A stretch of DNA of 64,000 nt from the NCBI GenBank assembly GCA_035691485.1, contig DASSIZ010000117.1:1-64000 (forward strand), in the 5' to 3' direction. The notes below the pieces were generated by a model that saw only the letters and a list, made by a program, of their open reading frames with translations, had not been told where the DNA came from and made no database searches. This document shows positions 6,831 through 58,872 of the stretch, piece by piece. How positions within the stretch are numbered: the first letter of the stretch is position 1; each line of letters begins with the position of its first letter. The DNA is from Terriglobales bacterium (GTDB lineage Bacteria; Acidobacteriota; Terriglobia; Terriglobales; Acidobacteriaceae). Made by a program: the position numbers and the translations under genes.

Positions 6831-8876
6831 TTACTGCAAACCGCCGCCGGTCGCGCGCACTTCTTGTCCTGCAGGCGGTGCGACGATGCCGCGAAACGGG
6901 GTAATGCCGAGCAGTCGCCCGCCGGCGAAATTCACCGATCGCATGTGAATGCCGGCATCAGCAATCCGGTTCCAGTGGTTGTTGTCGACCGTGGAATAGA
7001 CTTCGCCGGAATGAGTCACCCCGAGCAACCGCTGGGAAACGGCGTCATAGCGGACTGAGGTCAGGTTCTGCGGCGGAGTTCCTACCAGCACGTGCTCCCA
7101 GTTGGCGCCGTCGTCCTTGCTGAAAAATACTCCCGCGTAGGCTGAAACCCACATGGCCGAGGGCGACATGGCAACGCTGGACACCGTGCCCACGAACGAA
7201 GGCAAGTTTACAGGCGTCCAAGCGACCCCGTGATTGTGTGAAACCGCAAGCGAGTTCGGCGTGGAAGCCACCACCTTTTCGCCATCCACGTCAACGGAGA
7301 AGAAGTTTCGCAGCTCACCGACGGGGCCACCGTGCCAGGAATGTCCCTGGTCATAGCTGGCAAAAACCCCTTCGCTGGTGGCCGCGTACCAGCGCTCGCC
7401 GGCAACCACGATACGCGCCACCCGGCCCTTCAGTTCTGCCCGCACGTATTCCTTGTGCGTGGCGTATTTTGCGTTCTTCAGCTTGGGACCGCGTGCGGGC
7501 GTGGAGATAATTTTTTCATTGACGATGAGATTAGTCGCGCGCCAACGTCCCGCCGGACGCTCGTAGATGTAGATACCCCGCTGCGTGCCCGCCAGCAAGT
7601 CGCCGTGCGAAGTCTGCGCGAGAGTGAAAATGTCGTGGCCGGAGAGGCCCGCGTTCATCTGCTGCCAGTGCGCGCCAGCATCGTGGCTGACGAAGACGCC
7701 GCCGAATTCCTTGTCGTTGATTACGCCCGCATAGAGCGTGGCCGGGTTGTTGCGGTCGGCCAGAACAGCGGACACCTGGCGGTGGGAGAAGCCGCGGTTG
7801 GAAGCGCGGACGCTCTGGGTGCCGTCTTCACTCGCCATTACGCCGCTGCGGTCGGTGGCCAGCAGGACGTGGGAGGGCTGACGCGGGTCAACATCCACGT
7901 CGTTGACGATCAGGTTCGGCGCGGTGGTGCGACGCCAAGTTTTGCCGCCGTCCAGCGTTCTCCATAAACCTTCGGTTGTGCCGGCATACACGATCGCCGA
8001 ATTCGTTGGATCCTGACGCAGCACCCGGGTGCGTCGCGCCGAGAAAGGGATGCTCTGGATTTTGTGGAACAAATCGCCGGCATTGTCGCTCTTGTAAATT
8101 CCGGAGCAGGCGCTCAGGTAGACCGTAGCGGGGTTCTGCGGATCCACGATGATGGAGAAGACGTCGGAATCGTCGACGATTCCCTGTTTCATCGATTGCC
8201 ACGTCGCACCGCCGTCAGTGGTCTTCCAGGGCAGATGCCAGGTACCGGCATAAATCACCTGCGGCGAGCGCGGATCGATGGCGATGGATTCGATGTTCTT
8301 GATCTCGGGGTGATTGGCGGGAGAGATGCGCTCCCAATTATTCCCGGCGTCGTTGCTACGAAAAACGCCATCCAGGGCGCCGGCGATCAGGGTGCGAGAG
8401 TCACCGGCGAAAACGGCGAAACTGCGCACCGACTTGCCGTGCATGCCAGGAAGCGGTTGCCAAGTGCTGCCTCCGTCGCGGGAACGGAAAATGTCTCCGC
8501 CGCTGTTTTCGATGCTCCAAGCCGCCACGTACACAGTATTCGGGTTGGCGGAGTCGACCACGATGTGGTCGAGCACGTAATCGTCGCTGCCGCCGAAATG
8601 CGCGAAGTGCGACCAGGTGGCGCCGGCATCGGTGGACAGGTACATTTCGCCGGCGCTGGTGCCCAGGAAAATGTGGCTGGGATCGTGCGGATCATGCGCC
8701 AGGCTGCGCACGTCGCCGCCTTCAGGCCCGATGGTAACCCAGCGCTGCTGGGAGTTTTGCCCCGCCGCAACCAGACTCACAACGAGCAGCAGCACGGCTA
8801 AGAAGCAGCGGCATATGCGCGCGGCGGTCATACCTGACTGTTCATTCGATGCGATGAAGTGGGTCGCGTTTTTCAT
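6831..8876 (-). CDS. Secreted BNR/Asp-box beta-propeller protein
   Basis: 681 residues. A hydrophobic signal segment (FLAVLLLVVSLVAAG, about 25-39) directs export. The rest is built from repeated Asp-box motifs of the form S-x-D-x-G-x-T-W (STDAGATW, SRDGGSTW, TTDGGATW, TLDGGKTW, SHDAGAHW), together with DP-x-NP-x-T/V-YAG loops. These are typical of sortilin/VPS10-like and sialidase-type propellers. No catalytic sialidase residues or hydrolase domain can be recognised, so it is probably a binding or scaffold protein. It could equally be a cell-surface carbohydrate-interacting protein. It stands alone, with its own terminator downstream. Confidence 0.8.
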   Translation of the reverse strand: MKNATHFIASNEQSGMTAARICRCFLAVLLLVVSLVAAGQNSQQRWVTIGPEGGDVRSLAHDPHDPSHIFLGTSAGEMYLSTDAGATWSHFAHFGGSDDYVLDHIVVDSANPNTVYVAAWSIENSGGDIFRSRDGGSTWQPLPGMHGKSVRSFAVFAGDSRTLIAGALDGVFRSNDAGNNWERISPANHPEIKNIESIAIDPRSPQVIYAGTWHLPWKTTDGGATWQSMKQGIVDDSDVFSIIVDPQNPATVYLSACSGIYKSDNAGDLFHKIQSIPFSARRTRVLRQDPTNSAIVYAGTTEGLWRTLDGGKTWRRTTAPNLIVNDVDVDPRQPSHVLLATDRSGVMASEDGTQSVRASNRGFSHRQVSAVLADRNNPATLYAGVINDKEFGGVFVSHDAGAHWQQMNAGLSGHDIFTLAQTSHGDLLAGTQRGIYIYERPAGRWRATNLIVNEKIISTPARGPKLKNAKYATHKEYVRAELKGRVARIVVAGERWYAATSEGVFASYDQGHSWHGGPVGELRNFFSVDVDGEKVVASTPNSLAVSHNHGVAWTPVNLPSFVGTVSSVAMSPSAMWVSAYAGVFFSKDDGANWEHVLVGTPPQNLTSVRYDAVSQRLLGVTHSGEVYSTVDNNHWNRIADAGIHMRSVNFAGGRLLGITPFRGIVAPPAGQEVRATGGGLQ

Positions 8877-8960: not shown

Positions 8961-9076
8961 AGGAGTTAGGAATCAGGAGTAACGGGTTGAGAGTTAGGTG
9001 GGGGTTGGGAGTTGGGAGTTAGGGGGCTGGGGGTTAGGAGCTAGGAGTCAGGAGTCGACGCTGACTCCTGACTCCT
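8961..9076. repeat. Degenerate 7-nt array ending in a perfect 14-bp hairpin
   Basis: From 8961 to 9056 nearly every 7 bases repeat the theme (A/G)G(T/C)(T/C)(A/G)GG, for example GTTGGGA, GTTGGGA, GTTAGGG, GGTTAGG, AGCTAGG, AGTCAGG. The last two units (9043-9056) pair perfectly with 9063-9076 over 14 bp across a 6-nt loop. It sits between the OmpA-like gene stop (9086) and the BNR gene start (8876). There is no T run, so an intrinsic terminator is not obvious. Confidence 0.75.
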
Positions 9077-9085
9077 TCAGCCGAC

Positions 9086-10648
9086 CTACTGCTTCGGAGG
9101 GGCGGGTCGCTTGCGCGCCGGCTTGGGGGCCGGAGCGTGCGGATACGCATTCACACCCGCCTTTATCTTGCTGGCGTCAAACGCTTGCGTGCCTTGGACG
9201 TCAGAGTTTGCTCCCGCGGGAACCAGATAAATTTCCGCCGTGCGACTGCCGGCACTGCCAGTGCGCAGATCAATGCGGCCGGGGTCGATTCCCTTTTCCT
9301 GCGTGAGGTATGCCTTGGTGTTGACGGCGCGTTGCTCGGCCAACTTCTGCCCGTTCTTCTCGGCGGGATCGAAGTTGCCCACAATGACGGCCCTGGCATC
9401 GGCTTCCCGTTGCAGGCGCAAGGCGACGTCGTCAAGGATGGCTTTGGCTTCATTGTCCACGCGCGCCGGCAGTTTCGGGTTCTTGAACTCGATCTGGTTC
9501 AACTTGCTGGTTGACGGCGGCGGCGGCGGAACCTCGACGCTCACGGTTGTGGTATTGCTGGCGCTGAGCCCGCGATCGTCGGTCGCGGTGCAGGTGACGG
9601 TGATTGGACCGGCAGGAGCGCCTGCGGTGTCCAGCGTGGCCTGTGCCCCGGTCGGAGAAAGGCGGCCGCCGGTGGCGGAGAAGTCATAGGTCAGCGTCCG
9701 GTTGTCGGGACTTTGGCCGGTCGCGGTAATGGCGGAAGGCGAACCCGCCTGCACCGTCGCCGGATTGGCGCTGCAGGAGACGGTGGGCGGATGCTTTGGC
9801 GGCTCCTGCACGGTGAAGTTCGAGCTGCAGGTGGCAGGCGCCATCTTCTTCGCCTTGGGGTCGGTCAAGGTGGCGTTGACGGTGTACTGTCCGGGAGCGA
9901 GGCCGGTGGTGTCGATGGCAACGTTGTTGTCCTTCGGGGTGGCCTTGCCGCCAGTGGATTTGAAATCGTAGGTGACGGTGTGGCCCTTCATCACATTACT
10001 GGCGGTGGCGGTCAAGGTGACAGGCTCGCCGGCCATCACCGAAGCCGGGTTAATCGAACAATTGGCAGCCAGCGGAGGCGCAGGCGCTTCGCCTCCGAAA
10101 TTCAGGACAATGCCGCTGCGGATGCGCGCGCCGGCAAAGTCCGAGATCTTGGGCACCGTGGGTCCGAAGTTGTGGTGAGCCCAGACGTAATCTCCCTCGA
10201 GCAGACGGAAGGTAAAACGGCGCGTCACCGGGAGATCAATGCCGCCGCCGAGCGCGGCGCCGATCCGATTGTCTGTACCGAGATTCTCCACCGACAGCCG
10301 GTGCAGCCCGACGAGCGCATGGATGAAAGGTTCAAAGTGTTCCTGGCGGGCCTTGAAGCGCGGTCCCGCCATGATGGTGCTGATGTTGGCCACGTCGCCG
10401 TAATGAGCTTCGGCGTCAAGGCTGAAACCGAACACGCGGTTGAAATTCCATGTCGGCGTAATTCCGAAACCGGGTGTGATGGAGGGCAGCTTGAGGGCCC
10501 CGATCTGCCCGCCGGGATTCATCCAGGAATAGCCGGCGAAGATGTCGACCTTGGGAACGGGCTCGTCCTGTGCCGACATATTGCAAGAGAGGAGGAGGAA
10601 AAAGGCGGCGAGTAATGAACGGCCAAGAAAATTAATGCGAAGTGACAT
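9086..10648 (-). CDS. OmpA-like outer-membrane protein with Ig-like repeats
   Basis: 520 residues. A signal peptide (about 1-26, ending MSA-Q) is followed by an outer-membrane beta-barrel-like N domain (DIFAGYSWMN, VFGFSLDAEAHYGD, about 30-190). Two Ig/PKD-like repeats follow (about 195-285 and 290-375), each opening with a Cys-containing strand (NCSINPASVMAGEP, SCSANPATVQAGSP). An OmpA-C-like domain (about 390-480: AKAILDDVALRLQ, QKLAEQRAVNTKAYL, RIDLRTGSAG) is followed by a Pro/Ala/Lys tail. The usual GHTD peptidoglycan loop reads VGNFDP, so wall binding may be altered. GGAGG precedes ATG 10648. A role in anchoring the outer membrane is likely. Confidence 0.8.
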   Translation of the reverse strand: MSLRINFLGRSLLAAFFLLLSCNMSAQDEPVPKVDIFAGYSWMNPGGQIGALKLPSITPGFGITPTWNFNRVFGFSLDAEAHYGDVANISTIMAGPRFKARQEHFEPFIHALVGLHRLSVENLGTDNRIGAALGGGIDLPVTRRFTFRLLEGDYVWAHHNFGPTVPKISDFAGARIRSGIVLNFGGEAPAPPLAANCSINPASVMAGEPVTLTATASNVMKGHTVTYDFKSTGGKATPKDNNVAIDTTGLAPGQYTVNATLTDPKAKKMAPATCSSNFTVQEPPKHPPTVSCSANPATVQAGSPSAITATGQSPDNRTLTYDFSATGGRLSPTGAQATLDTAGAPAGPITVTCTATDDRGLSASNTTTVSVEVPPPPPSTSKLNQIEFKNPKLPARVDNEAKAILDDVALRLQREADARAVIVGNFDPAEKNGQKLAEQRAVNTKAYLTQEKGIDPGRIDLRTGSAGSRTAEIYLVPAGANSDVQGTQAFDASKIKAGVNAYPHAPAPKPARKRPAPPKQ

Positions 10649-10806: not shown

Positions 10807-10843
10807 GCACCCTGGGGGCTGGGAGTTGGGAGTCAGGAATCGT
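10807..10843. repeat. Short copy of the G-rich 7-nt array
   Basis: GGGGCTG, GGAGTTG, GGAGTCA and GGAATCG in tandem are the same words as the array at 8961-9056. The enclosing gap 10649-11051 (about 400 bases) holds no convincing gene. It also contains an inverted pair CTTGTCT / AGACAAG (10843-10876), an unused ribosome-site-like AAAGGAGGT at 10906-10914, and a weak 5-bp stem with T5 at 10974-10993. Confidence 0.6.
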
Positions 10844-22950: not shown

Positions 22951-23844
22951 ATGTCTGAGCCTTCCATACAGACTGCCGGGCAGGTCTGGGAGCACTGGCG
23001 CGCCGACGCGCTGAATTTCGTGCGCGTGGACCTTCCCAAAATCCTCTTCATCGTGGTGGTAACGTTCGTCCTGGTCCGCCTGCTCAAAGCGGTGACGCGC
23101 CGCCTGCGAGCGTTCGGCGAATCCAAGGAATTGCCCAGCGGCTTTCGCGCGCAGCAACTTCGGACATTGAGTGGAGTGGTGTACAGCGCGGGCACGTTCG
23201 TGCTCGTGTTCCTGGCCCTGCTGCAGGTCCTGCCGGTGCTGGGGATCAACATGGGACCGTTGCTGGCGAGCGCGGGGATAGCGGGGCTGGCCATCGGGTT
23301 TGGCGCGCAAACCCTGGTACACGACGTGATCAATGGCTTCTTCATCCTGATGGAAAACCAGTACGAGGTTGGGGACACGGTGCGCGTAGGCGGCATCACC
23401 GGCGTGGTCGAGCGCATGACCTTGCGCGCCACTTTGTTGCGCGACGACCAAGGCGCGCTCTCCACGGTTCCCAACAGTAAGATCGATATTGTCTCCAATC
23501 TGACGCGCGACTGGGCGCAGGTGGCGCTGCACGTGTCGGTCGCCTACAACGAGAGCAGCGACAAGGTGATCAGCGTGCTGAAGGAAGTCGGGCAGGAAAT
23601 CCGGGCGGACGAAAACATCGCCTCCCTGCTCGTTTCCGACCCGCAGGTGCCGGGCATCGAGCGCGTCAGCGGCAACGAAGTGGATTACGTAATGCTGGTA
23701 AAAACGCGCCCGGGCGCGCAGTACGCGGTGACGCGGGAACTTCGCCGCCGGATCAAGGAGTGCTTCGAGAAGAACCACATTCAACCCGGGGGTCCGGGCG
23801 GGATGTTCCTGGTGCAGACCGGGCCCGGGAAGACGGCAGGGTAA
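22951..23844 (+). CDS. MscS-family mechanosensitive channel
   Basis: 297 residues. Three membrane helices at about 28-48, 75-97 and 103-125. The last is the Gly/Ala-rich pore helix (LLASAGIAGLAIGFGAQTLVHDVINGFFI) typical of MscS. A beta domain follows with EVGDTVRVGGITGVVERMTLR and TVPNSKI, then an alpha/beta C-terminal domain. The family gates on membrane tension to release solutes on osmotic downshift. The size and arrangement match small YkuT/MscS-like channels. Confidence 0.9.
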   Translation: MSEPSIQTAGQVWEHWRADALNFVRVDLPKILFIVVVTFVLVRLLKAVTRRLRAFGESKELPSGFRAQQLRTLSGVVYSAGTFVLVFLALLQVLPVLGINMGPLLASAGIAGLAIGFGAQTLVHDVINGFFILMENQYEVGDTVRVGGITGVVERMTLRATLLRDDQGALSTVPNSKIDIVSNLTRDWAQVALHVSVAYNESSDKVISVLKEVGQEIRADENIASLLVSDPQVPGIERVSGNEVDYVMLVKTRPGAQYAVTRELRRRIKECFEKNHIQPGGPGGMFLVQTGPGKTAG

Positions 23845-23943
23845 TTTAGTAATCTAGTAATTTGAAATTGGAAATTTGAGAATTTGAAGTCTTTCCGGAC
23901 CGCTCGCCACGTTTCAAATTCTCGAGTTTCAAATTTCAAATTC
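23842..23943. repeat. AATTTGA-type 7-nt array with complementary arm
   Basis: AT-rich against its surroundings. Left part 23842-23889 repeats TAATTTG/AAATTTG-like units every 7-8 bases. Right part 23911-23943 repeats TTTCAAA/AATTTCA. GAGAATTTGAA (23878-23888) pairs perfectly with TTCAAATTCTC (23913-23923), giving an 11-bp stem. It fills the whole gap between mscS and the reductase and ends at the reductase ATG. Confidence 0.65.
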
Positions 23944-24732
23944 ATGGAAACAGGTCTGAAAGATCGGGTGGTGATTGTTGCCGCTTCCGCCCAGGGGATG
24001 GGTCGGGCGACGGCAGAAGCGTTCGCCGCCGAAGGCTGCCGGCTGGCAATTTGCGCGCGCAGCACGCAAAGCTTGCGCCTGGCTGCGGCCTCGATTGCCG
24101 GCAAGCATCGTGTGCCGGTACATTGCGAAGGGTTGGATGTCGCCGATGCCGGAGCGGTGCGCCAATTTGTCGCCGGTGTCGTGGAGCGGTACGGAGGAGT
24201 GGACGTCTGTGTCACCAACGCGGGAGGCCCGCCCGCAAAAACTTTTCTGGATACCAGCGATGAAGACTGGCACAGCGCGGTCGAGATGAACCTGCTCAGC
24301 GTGGTTTATTTCGCTCGCGCCGTGATCCCGCACATGCAGAAGAAAAAATGGGGGCGGCTGATTACCATCACCTCGCTCACCGTCAAGCAACCGGTAGAAC
24401 ACCTCGTGCTTTCCAACGCGGTGCGCACCGGGGTGGCCGGACTGGTGAAGAGCCTGGCGAATGAGTTCGGAAAGGACGGGATCCTGGTCAACAACGTCGG
24501 GCCGGGGTATACCGCCACCGAGCGACTAAAACAACTGGCAAAGGCGCAGGCGGCGGCAAGGGGCGTTTCCGAAGAAAGTATTTATCAGGGCTGGGCCGCA
24601 AGTTCTCCGCTGGGGAGAATTGCGCGACCTGAAGAAGTTGCCGAAACCATCGTGTGGCTGGCTTCGGAACGCGCGTCGTTCATCACCGGCCAGACGATTC
24701 TGGTGGACGGTGGCGCGTACAAAGGCTTGTAG
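23944..24732 (+). CDS. SDR-family oxidoreductase lacking the classical catalytic Tyr/Lys
   Basis: 262 residues from ATG 23944, just inside the upstream AT-rich array. The Rossmann Gly motif is AASAQGMG (13-20), the NAG motif VTNAGG is near 90-95, and Ser144 sits in TITSLTV. The positions expected for the catalytic Tyr and Lys (Ser+13 and +17) are Ser157 and Arg161 (HLVLSNAVRT). The C-terminal signature ASFITGQTILVDGG is intact. This SxNxxR subgroup of 3-oxoacyl-reductase-like SDRs is known, but its chemistry is not standard. Substrate unknown. Confidence 0.82.
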   Translation: METGLKDRVVIVAASAQGMGRATAEAFAAEGCRLAICARSTQSLRLAAASIAGKHRVPVHCEGLDVADAGAVRQFVAGVVERYGGVDVCVTNAGGPPAKTFLDTSDEDWHSAVEMNLLSVVYFARAVIPHMQKKKWGRLITITSLTVKQPVEHLVLSNAVRTGVAGLVKSLANEFGKDGILVNNVGPGYTATERLKQLAKAQAAARGVSEESIYQGWAASSPLGRIARPEEVAETIVWLASERASFITGQTILVDGGAYKGL

Positions 24733-48086: not shown

Positions 48087-48090
48087 CAAC

Positions 48091-48162
48091 CGTCGATGGC
48101 GGATGGTCGATGGCCGGTGCTGATTCGTTTGGCCATCAACCATCGACCATGGACCATCGACC
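48091..48162. repeat. GATGGTC-type 7-nt array forming a hairpin between kinase and EBP
   Basis: Left arm CGATGGC, GGATGGT, CGATGGC (48094-48114); right arm GGCCATCAACCATC then GACCATGGACCATCGACC (48131-48162). GATGGTCGATGGCC (48102-48115) pairs with 48131-48144 at 13 of 14 positions across a 15-nt loop. It lies inside a likely operon. Confidence 0.65.
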
Positions 48163-52439: not shown

Positions 52440-53657
52440 TCACATCGGCCGGCGCTCAATCACCTTTTGAAGACGCGGGAAAGCCCAGTCGATCTGGTCA
52501 CGGGTGATGACCAGCGGCGGGGCCAAACGGATGACCTTTTCGTGCGTCTCCTTGCACAGGATTCCCTGCTCCTTCAGGGCCTCGCAATAGGGACGCGCCG
52601 GGCCGAGGAGTTCAATGGCGATCCAAAGGCCGCGGCCGCGGATTTCGCGGATCTCAGGCTTGCTGAGGGTGCGCAGGCGATCGAGGAAGTAAGCTCCGAG
52701 TTCGGCCGAGTTACGCACCATGTTTTCTTCCGCGAGCACCCGCAGCGCAGTACGTGCGACGGCACAGGCCAGCGGGTTTCCGCCGAAGGTGGAACCATGG
52801 TCGCCGGGACGGAAGACGCCGAGCACTTCTTTCGACGCCAGCACGGCGGATACGGGATAGAAGCCGCCGGCGAGCGCCTTGCCGATGATCAGCACGTCGG
52901 GAGTGACGCGCTCGTGCATGCAGGCGAACAGTTTGCCGGTGCGGCCGAGGCCGGACTGGATCTCGTCGCATATCAGCAGCACCTGGTTGAGCCGGCAGAC
53001 ACGGGCGGCGTCGCGCAGAAAACCGTCGGCGGGAATGATGATGCCCGCTTCACCCTGGATGGGCTCCACCAGGAAGGCGCAGGTGTTCGGGGTGATGGCC
53101 GCCTGCAGCGCGGCGGCGTCGCCGAACGGTATGACTTTGAAGCCGGGCGTGAACGGACCGAAGCCGTGGCGATACTGCTCGTCGGTGGAGAAGCTGACTA
53201 CGGTGGTGGTGCGGCCATGAAAATTGTTGGCGCAGACGATGATGTCTGCCTGGCCGTCGGGAATACCTTTCACGGTATAGCCCCACTTGCGGGCGGCCTT
53301 GATAGCGGTCTCGACCGCCTCGGCGCCGGTGTTCATGGGCAGTGCCATGTCATAGCCGGTAAGTTCGTGGAGTTCCTTGAGTAGTAACGGGAGCTGGTCA
53401 TTGCGGAAGGCGCGCGAGGTGAGGGTGACGCGGTGGGCCTGGTCGATGAGCGTTTCCAGGATCCGCGGGTGGCAATGTCCCTGGTTGACCGCGGAATACG
53501 ATGCCAGGCAGTCGAGGTACCTCCTGCCTTCGGTGTCATAAACCCAGACCCCTTGCCCGCGATGAATGACGACATCCAGGGGGTGATAGTTGTGGGCGCC
53601 GTACTGCTCTTCGAGAGCGATAAATTCGTCGCTTTTACTGAGTTCTGCCGTTAACAT
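52440..53657 (-). CDS. rocD: Ornithine aminotransferase
   Basis: 405 residues. Class-III aminotransferase: [54 protein letters not shown], and the PLP lysine in IIGKALAGG (Lys260), then [17 protein letters not shown]. The [15 protein letters not shown] and [10 protein letters not shown] blocks are typical of ornithine delta-aminotransferase rather than ArgD. It converts ornithine plus 2-oxoglutarate to glutamate semialdehyde plus glutamate. Last gene of a COG2403-argF-rocD operon. Confidence 0.92.
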
Positions 53658-53681
53658 TTTTCCTCCCTCTGGACTTAGGGG

Positions 53682-54677
53682 CTAGCCCCTTTCCGCCAGC
53701 TCCAACTCTTGAACAGGTTGCCCACGCACCACTCTCCTGGGACGCAAAACCACCTCCCCTTTCATGAGCTCGTACAGGATCGCCTTCTGCGCGTGGAGGC
53801 GATTTTCCGCTTGCTGAAAAACTGCGGATTGAGCGCAGTCGATGACCTCGTCGGTGACCTCTTCACCGCGGTGAGCGGGGAGGCAGTGCATGAAGATGGC
53901 ATCGCGCTTGGCGTTGCTGAAAAGCCGGGCGTCGACCTGGAAGGGATGGAAAGCGCGAGCCCGTTTTTCGGCTTCGTTTTCCTGCCCCATGCTGGTCCAG
54001 ACATCGGTGTAGACGACATCGGCATCGAACGCGGCTTCGACGGGGTCGTTGGTCAAGGTGATGATGGCGCCGGTCTGCAGGCTGCGTTCACGCGCCCAAT
54101 GCACCGCCTGCGGGTTGGGTTCGTAACCGTCAGGGGTTGAGATCCAGACGTTCGCGCCCAGTTGTGCTCCGGCGAACATCAGGGAATGCGCCACGTTGTT
54201 GCCGTCGCCCAGGAATGCAACCTTCAGTCCCGCAATGTGTCCCTTACGTTCTTCGATCGTCAGGAAGTCGGCCATGGCCTGGCAGGGATGGCTGAAATCG
54301 GTCAGGCCGTTGATGACGGGAATGGAAGCGTACTCGGCCAAACGCTCGACGATGTCGTGGGCAAAGGTGCGGATCATGATCGCCTGCACCATGCGCTCCA
54401 GGTTCTTGGCCACGTCGTACACGGACTCGCGCTTGCCGAGGCTGATTTCGGCGGGGGAAAGATAAAGCGAGAAGCCGCCGAGCTGCTGGATGCCGACGTC
54501 GAAAGTAACCCGAGTGCGGAGGGAGGGCTTCTCGAAAATCATGGCCAGCGTCTTGCCCTTGAGCGAATCCGCGTAAGTGCTCGGGCTGGCCTTGATATCG
54601 GCGGCCAAGTCGAGAAGTTCGCGGATTCGGAAGGGCGAAAAGTCGCGGATGGAAAGGAAATCATTACGGTGATCCAT
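53682..54677 (-). CDS. argF: Ornithine carbamoyltransferase
   Basis: 331 residues. Carbamoyl-phosphate site SLRTR (52-56); HPCQ at 130-133; FLGDGNNVAHSL; ornithine site DVWTSMGQE; MHCLPAHRGEE near the C terminus. Interconverts ornithine plus carbamoyl phosphate and citrulline. It starts 43 bases after the COG2403 gene and is followed 24 bases later by rocD. The direction could be anabolic (arginine synthesis) or catabolic. The rocD neighbour hints at ornithine breakdown. Confidence 0.94.
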   Translation of the reverse strand: MDHRNDFLSIRDFSPFRIRELLDLAADIKASPSTYADSLKGKTLAMIFEKPSLRTRVTFDVGIQQLGGFSLYLSPAEISLGKRESVYDVAKNLERMVQAIMIRTFAHDIVERLAEYASIPVINGLTDFSHPCQAMADFLTIEERKGHIAGLKVAFLGDGNNVAHSLMFAGAQLGANVWISTPDGYEPNPQAVHWARERSLQTGAIITLTNDPVEAAFDADVVYTDVWTSMGQENEAEKRARAFHPFQVDARLFSNAKRDAIFMHCLPAHRGEEVTDEVIDCAQSAVFQQAENRLHAQKAILYELMKGEVVLRPRRVVRGQPVQELELAERG

Positions 54678-58557: not shown

Positions 58558-58665
58558 AGTGTGCTGCCTCCTGCCATCGTTGACTGCCACGACAGGGTAG
58601 CTTTCTCACGCACACCCAGACTGTGACGCTGGTCTCATGGGCGTGTGACGTAGGTACATTATGCC

Positions 58666-58720
58666 AGCTTTTAGCTCTTAGCTCCTGGCTCTTAGCTGTT
58701 GGCTCTTGGCTTCTTAGCTA
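58666..58720. repeat. TTAGCTC 7-nt array
   Basis: Seven consecutive 7-nt units from 58671: TTAGCTC, TTAGCTC, CTGGCTC, TTAGCTG, TTGGCTC, TTGGCTT, CTTAGCT. Read on the other strand it resembles the words of the array at 8961-9056. Confidence 0.7.
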
Positions 58721-58725
58721 CCGGT

Positions 58726-58872
58726 CACCACAGAGGCACAGAGGCGCGTAACCGCATTGCTGATTGCAGCGGTCCACGAATAGGCAATCGAAAATGTCTT
58801 TGTTTGGCCGCATCCTGTGTGGCTCGCTGGGATCCTTCGACTCGGGCATGCGCCCTCGCCCAGGATGACAAC
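58726..58872. repeat. Two further short repeat-like sequences
   Basis: The 345-base gap 58558-58902 holds no gene. ACCACAGAGGCACAGAGGCG (58727-58746) and a GATCCTTCGACTC...AGGATGACA element (58831-58869) resemble interspersed intergenic words that I recall from several bacterial phyla. The second is partly self-complementary (ATCCTT / AGGAT). Confidence 0.4.

Follow-up and report, generated by a model that had tools for sequence, protein, structure and literature searches.

A heptamer array between two minus-strand genes

The window analyzed here is a 64,000-nt stretch of Terriglobales bacterium DNA, in which a G-rich array of near-7-nt units lies between two protein genes that are both on the minus strand. 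The gene that is upstream in the direction of transcription (positions 9086 to 10648) encodes a 520-aa PKD and OmpA-like protein, and its stop codon is located 10 bp from the hairpin that caps the array. The downstream gene (6831 to 8876) encodes a 681-aa protein with BNR/sortilin-like repeats. On the plus strand, the array forms a long 5′ arm (8961 to 9058) with the consensus GG[A/G]G[T/C][T/C][A/G], which can also be phased as [T/C][A/G]GG[A/G]G[T/C]. From position 8961, the units read GGAGTTA, GGAATCA, GGAGTAA, CGGGTTG, AGAGTTA, GGTGGG and GGTTG, followed directly by GGAGTTG, GGAGTTA, GGGGGCTG, GGGGTTA, GGAGCTA, GGAGTCA and GGAGTC. A preliminary description, made from the sequence alone, had counted about 13 units that drift through G-rich words. 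The count is closer to 14, with three register slips, and the period is indeed preserved while the letters drift, mostly by transitions.

Convergent with this arm is a short inverted copy, and the match between the two was correctly described as exact for the final two units. The hairpin arms AGGAGTCAGGAGTC (9043 to 9056) and GACTCCTGACTCCT (9063 to 9076) pair perfectly over 14 bp around a 6-nt loop (9057 to 9062). This helix can form on either strand, but only the minus-strand version, on the strand of both neighboring genes, is exceptionally stable (z = -5.1, with 0 of 200 shuffles equally stable, compared with z = -1.4 for the plus strand).

Several established identities do not apply to this structure. 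The minus strand carries no T-run after the hairpin, which rules out an intrinsic terminator, and the location between two protein genes rules out an intervening sequence (IVS) of 23S rRNA. Searches of the 64-kb window returned no Rfam match, no rRNA and no tRNA. As the preliminary description held, the array does not look like a classical REP: its unit is a drifting heptamer rather than a conserved palindrome of 20 to 40 nt. A DGR/Avd system, with its reverse transcriptase, Avd and template and variable repeats, was rejected as well, and reverse transcriptase was dropped as a general partner of the arrays: each congener genome has a single partial match, and the contigs concerned carry no PF05635 gene among the matches listed except for G003 contig C1, where the two are approximately 50 kb apart.

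The GGAG-type word was said to recur at two other places in the window. This is true of a second, short array on the plus strand (10815 to 10842; GGGGCTG, GGAGTTG, GGAGTCA and GGAATCG), which has no inverted partner. The third array (58665 to 58719, minus strand) also has a period of 7 nt, but shares only this period and the frame; its word, AGCTCTT/AGAGCTA, differs from the GGAG type, and thus these are not the same words. Two hairpin arrays had been missed. One has an AATTTGA-type word (23841 to 23944, with arms at about 23841 to 23889 and 23911 to 23944) and fills the spacer between two plus-strand genes. The other (48090 to 48162, with arms at 48090 to 48119 and 48131 to 48162) has the word TCGATGG, which is also the arm word of an element in a congener (L293) that carries a PF05635 (IVP/S23) gene. 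A plus-strand relic, GGACTTAGGGGCTAGCCCC (53671 to 53690), is located between argD (52440 to 53657) and argF (53682 to 54677). Also present are 8-nt repeats, CACAGAGG (58729 to 58745); repeats of this type likewise form an imperfect hairpin in an orthologous spacer of G000 and G001 (L221/L250), and probably represent a period-8 branch of the heptamer class.

These arrays exceed chance expectation at several scales. Two consecutive GGRGYYR units with one mismatch allowed match the window 18 times, versus a mean of 5.0 (maximum 10) in shuffled sequence, and four consecutive RRRRYYR units match 7 times versus 0.04. Genome-wide, three consecutive GGRGYYR units give 38 matches, whereas the reversed pattern gives 2, and about 18 further arrays with the word of the 8961 array are found elsewhere in the genome. 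The lag-7 autocorrelation scan proposed in the preliminary description revealed an excess in 456 kb, with six scan windows at 29/42 or above and four at 31/42 or above against 0 simulated; the other lags yielded few such windows, most of them at 8 and 21. Where arrays of the GGAG-type word are neighbors, 17 pairs are convergent and none is divergent; most arrays that lack an ORF have no inverted partner within reach. With tandem 7-nt units that occur above chance and mainly between genes, the array has the properties of the intergenic heptamer class.

Heptamer arms flanking PF05635 genes

In the congener G001, two GGAGTCA arms at the argF/argD site enclose an ORF of the PF05635 family. Complete IVP elements, whose arms read GGAGTCA and GTAGTCG, are present at this site in both G001 and G002. 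When the genus was searched for PF05635, nearly every such gene proved to be bordered by inverted 7-nt arrays, each pair with its own word, and the same arrangement is observed in cyanobacteria, Bacteroidota, Planctomycetota and Verrucomicrobiota. Because the cross-phylum loci had been picked for their heptamers, we added two sets chosen otherwise, namely other genomes of the family and plasmid records retrieved by IVP protein only. The complete elements consist of a PF05635 gene in the loop between convergent 7-nt arms.

Lag-7 arrays (threshold of at least 15/21) occur in at least one flank of 81% of 162 usable IVP genes and in both flanks of 52%, such that about a fifth of the genes have no clear array. 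The corresponding values are 17.6% and 2.1% for ordinary ORFs of G000 and G001 (n = 579), and 1.9% and 0% for ORFs of family genomes that are free of IVP (n = 207). When the left flank is compared with the reverse complement of the right flank, 47% of IVP genes but only 1.0% of controls score above the 99th percentile of mismatched pairs, and the direct orientation yields 10.7%. This inverted-arm signal is specific to lag 7, with some at lag 8. The arm words agree at 4.79 of 7 positions within the same element, compared with 3.14 between mismatched elements and 2.84 in direct orientation. The flanks are periodic at all 12 plasmid loci found by IVP protein only, the period being 7 nt at ten of them and 8 nt at the other two; the phage genomes searched for IVP gave no match.

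Some of these loci have features of their own. In L312 (Okeania) and L328 (a Vicingaceae MAG), the arrays on the two sides of the gene seem to be in direct, not inverted, orientation. Complete elements with differing words reside between cas6 and cas4 on Anabaena sp. 90 pANA02 (L488) and Pseudanabaena galeata pPg_01 (L494). Certain spacers beside housekeeping genes carry IVP elements recurrently in several congeners, including those next to topA (L278, L281 and L286), prfA (L283, L285 and L293) and argF/argD (L275 and L282).

At the level of whole genomes, 28 of 40 family genomes with PF05635 have at least 10 net CAGYNNT arrays, compared with 1 of 9 without it (p = 0.002; genomes at least 90% complete). 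In 306 kb taken from five IVP-free genomes, whose G+C content is slightly lower (0.56 versus 0.60), there are 0 lag-7 arrays where 9.4 are expected under a Poisson model that ignores clustering within genomes. A strict rule by which genomes without IVP have no arrays is ruled out by G064, a family genome that is nearly complete and has no PF05635 match, yet contains about 140 net CAGYNNT arrays. Several IVP-bearing genomes have no net CAG arrays. Also ruled out is a strict rule by which any genome with a given word has an IVP with that word. Both G007 and G009 have many GGRGYYR matches, and their examined IVP loci carry other words; in G007, no PF05635 gene lies beside a GGRGYYR array among the matches listed. 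In a separate genome (G082), CAGYCGT arrays are repeated head to tail every 78 to 92 bases on one strand (C8:111162–111603 and C9:13664–13984), which looks like amplification of entire array units.

The GGAG-type word is carried by nine IVP elements, including L282 from the same genus and L414 from the same family, and the ORF is present in both of these. The array in the window has convergent inverted arms with the potential to form a stem and shares the YRG frame common to such elements. However, no PF05635 ORF lies between its arms, and therefore this copy is classed as ORF-less rather than as a full IVP/S23 element. Its genome, which is 98.5% complete, has two PF05635 matches, L276 with TTTGTAA arms and the partial L280. 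Both genes carry other words, and the search thus yielded no IVP of the GGAG type here.

Word identity, protein tracking and turnover

The 131 elements contain 106 distinct consensus words, most detected arrays having 5 to 6 units (the detector requires at least four). When phase-aligned, these words have [C/T][A/G]G in common, as well as a T in position 7, and this YRG frame has an information content of 2.73 bits versus 1.88 ± 0.05 for letter-permuted words. Words that lack G-runs, such as TTTGTAA, CAGTTCT and AGCTCTC, behave as the G-rich ones do. Transitions make up 42% of the unit differences over all IVP arrays, which rules out drift by transitions only as a general rule.

Word similarity increases with IVP identity at loci whose flanks are not homologous (r = 0.27, 0 of 500 permutations) and also within genomes (r = 0.28, 1 of 1000 permutations), with shared ancestry only partly corrected for in both comparisons. 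A CAGCA group (L388, L415, L416, L433 and L436), for example, comprises different loci in different genera. As judged from these sequence comparisons, the tracking of protein by word is consistent with a protein that recognizes its word; arms and ORF that are inherited together as a unit would also give rise to a correlation. The IVP genes are under purifying selection (dN/dS 0.05–0.17), and the word is kept beside them at dS values of 1.2 to 3, unlike at ORF-less sites.

Comparison with congeners illustrates the behavior of sites without an ORF. In three congeners, both genes around the 8961 array are conserved and the spacer between them has no array; it instead contains a terminator-like G+C hairpin with a T-run that serves the same upstream gene. 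At the L035 site, this genome has GGAGTTA, whereas the others have GTAGCTG, GTTATCG and AGCTCTC. At the L038 site, a GGAGTC hairpin in this genome corresponds to a GTTTCAG hairpin in two congeners. Thus, words are replaced rapidly at ORF-less sites. Alignment with the congeners revealed no target duplication.

Arrays are also found within a long coding gene of G001 (L222; C57:23000–27200) that looks like an aminoacyl-tRNA synthetase. This gene contains in-frame GGAGTCA arrays and a GTCGACG array, at positions of about 1375, 2410 and 2770 and also at 825. At the corresponding sites of G000, the array is missing or is replaced by one with another word or by a palindromic repeat of a different kind.

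Interpretation and relation to known repeats

The preliminary description knew of no feature type for such an array, but intergenic heptamer repeats are one (PMC4692102, PMC4679880, PMC6344855). Known examples are GGGNATC in Xanthomonas and GGGGAYT in Nostoc (Rehm 2015, PMC4692102), and TAACTGA in Beggiatoaceae, cyanobacteria and Bacteroidetes (MacGregor 2015, PMC4679880). In Xanthomonas the heptamers form convergent inverted pairs, 70 of them in Xcc, and no general association with mobile elements was noted (PMC4692102). Like the arrays described here, the known repeats have 7-nt units, few per array, and are mostly intergenic, and they fit the YRG frame when written as CGGGNAT, TGGGGAY and CAGTTAT. 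Cyanobacterial STRR, reportedly described by Mazel in 1990, are heptamer repeats as well. A Microcystis IVP gene (L314) has the right arm CAGTTAT, which is the reverse complement of TAACTGA. The papers on known heptamers name no partner gene, whereas a link to PF05635 was found here. This partner appears to be new, while the repeat class itself is already known. No earlier report of a link between IVP and heptamers was encountered in the literature searched, which covered only a minority of subscription journals and no bioRxiv preprints, and this negative result is therefore weak evidence of novelty.

Proteins of the PF05635 (IVP/S23) family form a homopentameric ring of four-helix bundles and are relatives of the DGR protein Avd. 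The solved chain closest to IVP is 2GSC, which has 5 chains and is a homopentamer (PMC4990558). This protein, XCC0516, is from Xanthomonas campestris, and the GGGNATC arrays were described in that same species. The 23S rRNA IVS with an S23/IVP ORF, such as that of Coxiella (PMC4990558), is likewise a stem-loop with a PF05635-family protein in the loop. The elements examined here differ in that they are located between protein genes, also inside operons, have many copies and words, and often lack the ORF. In Azospirillum lipoferum 4B AZO_p2 (L496), an IVP gene lies inside a 23S rRNA gene (Rfam RF02541), and its stem is an inverted array of YRG heptamers (CAGAGGA, CGGATGA, CAGAGGA and CGGAGGA plus their inverse). 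This is a single 23S example, with no further rRNA-embedded IVP in scans of 40 other IVP loci. Because an IVP within 23S rRNA has the same stem, the classical 23S IVSs seem to be one case of the class. In other bacteria, IVS stems are cut by RNase III (PMC4990558).

We favor, at a probability of roughly 0.6, the explanation that the array in the window is an ORF-less member of this stem-loop family, in which the IVP ring would recognize the array of the element that encodes it. Each ring subunit would plausibly bind one unit, on a single-stranded transcript or on unpaired DNA. Such recognition would hold the period and the constant YRG letters at a 7-nt spacing, while the spacer letters would be free to drift. 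TRAP, an 11-mer ring whose sites are (G/U)AG repeats at a spacing of about 5 nt, offers an analogy only: a ring protein that reads regularly spaced triplets would explain both the fixed spacing and the free spacer letters. The ORF-less copies would be non-autonomous or left over, and would survive in intergenic positions, where a hairpin is tolerated in the manner of the 23S IVS that RNase III excises. Loss of the GGAG-type IVP from this genome seems to be the simplest account, given that only L276 with its TTTGTAA arms, the partial L280 and a mere relic at argF/argD are present. This apparent loss would leave the ORF-less arrays to decay and would explain the observed drift, and the array in the window is best read as a decaying member of this kind.

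The drift had first been attributed to slippage or templated copying. Slippage is insufficient alone because it leaves unexplained the convergent inverted pairs, the single protein family that they flank and the tracking of protein by word. Pressed further, neutral slippage would make all of the arrays, and IVP genes would be harmless passengers in pre-existing hairpin loops, with no recognition of words. We consider this unlikely, since the word correlates with the protein sequence even where the loci are not homologous, IVP genes retain their flanking word despite saturated synonymous divergence, neighboring arrays are always convergent (17:0), IVP-free relatives are nearly devoid of arrays and a common YRG frame is unexpected. 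Neutrality does agree with the fast turnover at ORF-less sites (four words in four congeners at L035 and two kinds at L038), with the lack of the window array at the orthologous site of three congeners and with the location of 23S IVSs in helix loops. Among the tandem repeats between prokaryotic genes, heptamers are also the most frequent (PMC6344855), and their connection with the polymerase footprint has been proposed in work relayed by two of the heptamer papers (PMC4679880, PMC4692102).

A role for the host appears improbable. The hairpin or the G-rich strand would then serve as a transcript 3′ end, an RNase barrier, a G-quadruplex or a regulator site, and the link to IVP would be secondary. 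The array hairpin does occupy the place of the classical G+C hairpin and T-run in the spacer of the three congeners, RNA hairpins are stable and related heptamers form G4 structures in vitro (PMC4692102). Yet the minus strand has no U-tract after the array hairpin, the flanking genes are functionally unrelated across arrays, words without G-runs behave alike and arrays also occur in frame inside the G001 coding gene. We regard as very improbable a conventional mobile element, either palindromes of the REP/REPIN type that a RAYT-like Y1 transposase mobilizes or the MITEs of an IS. The many intergenic, convergent inverted repeats and their sporadic distribution between species are what such an element would produce, but the recurring linked gene is PF05635 and no transposase, words vary between the elements of one genome as IS ends do not, and the congener alignments lack target duplications. 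The REPIN-RAYT system has many short inverted-repeat copies per genome and one or a few genes that possibly serve in trans, and the IVP elements resemble it in having many inverted copies and few genes. They differ in that the word varies within a genome and the gene product is a four-helix bundle for which no catalytic function is known.

A broader generalization from ring recognition of the element's own array is tentative. IVP/S23 pentamers might read 7-nt arrays in general, one unit per subunit, each with its own word and with YRG as the anchor. Many bacterial heptamer arrays and 23S IVS stems could then be cognate sites or non-autonomous copies of one selfish stem-loop family. To our knowledge, no function has been assigned to S23/IVP, a common protein whose ring structure has been solved. 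Heptamers are reported to be the most abundant tandem repeats between prokaryotic genes, and their function to be without a clear explanation (PMC6344855). Their tie to IVP supplies a testable candidate partner for both and a possible reason for the number 7, and it widens the 23S intervening-sequence class, which now takes in elements from several phyla that lie between protein genes.
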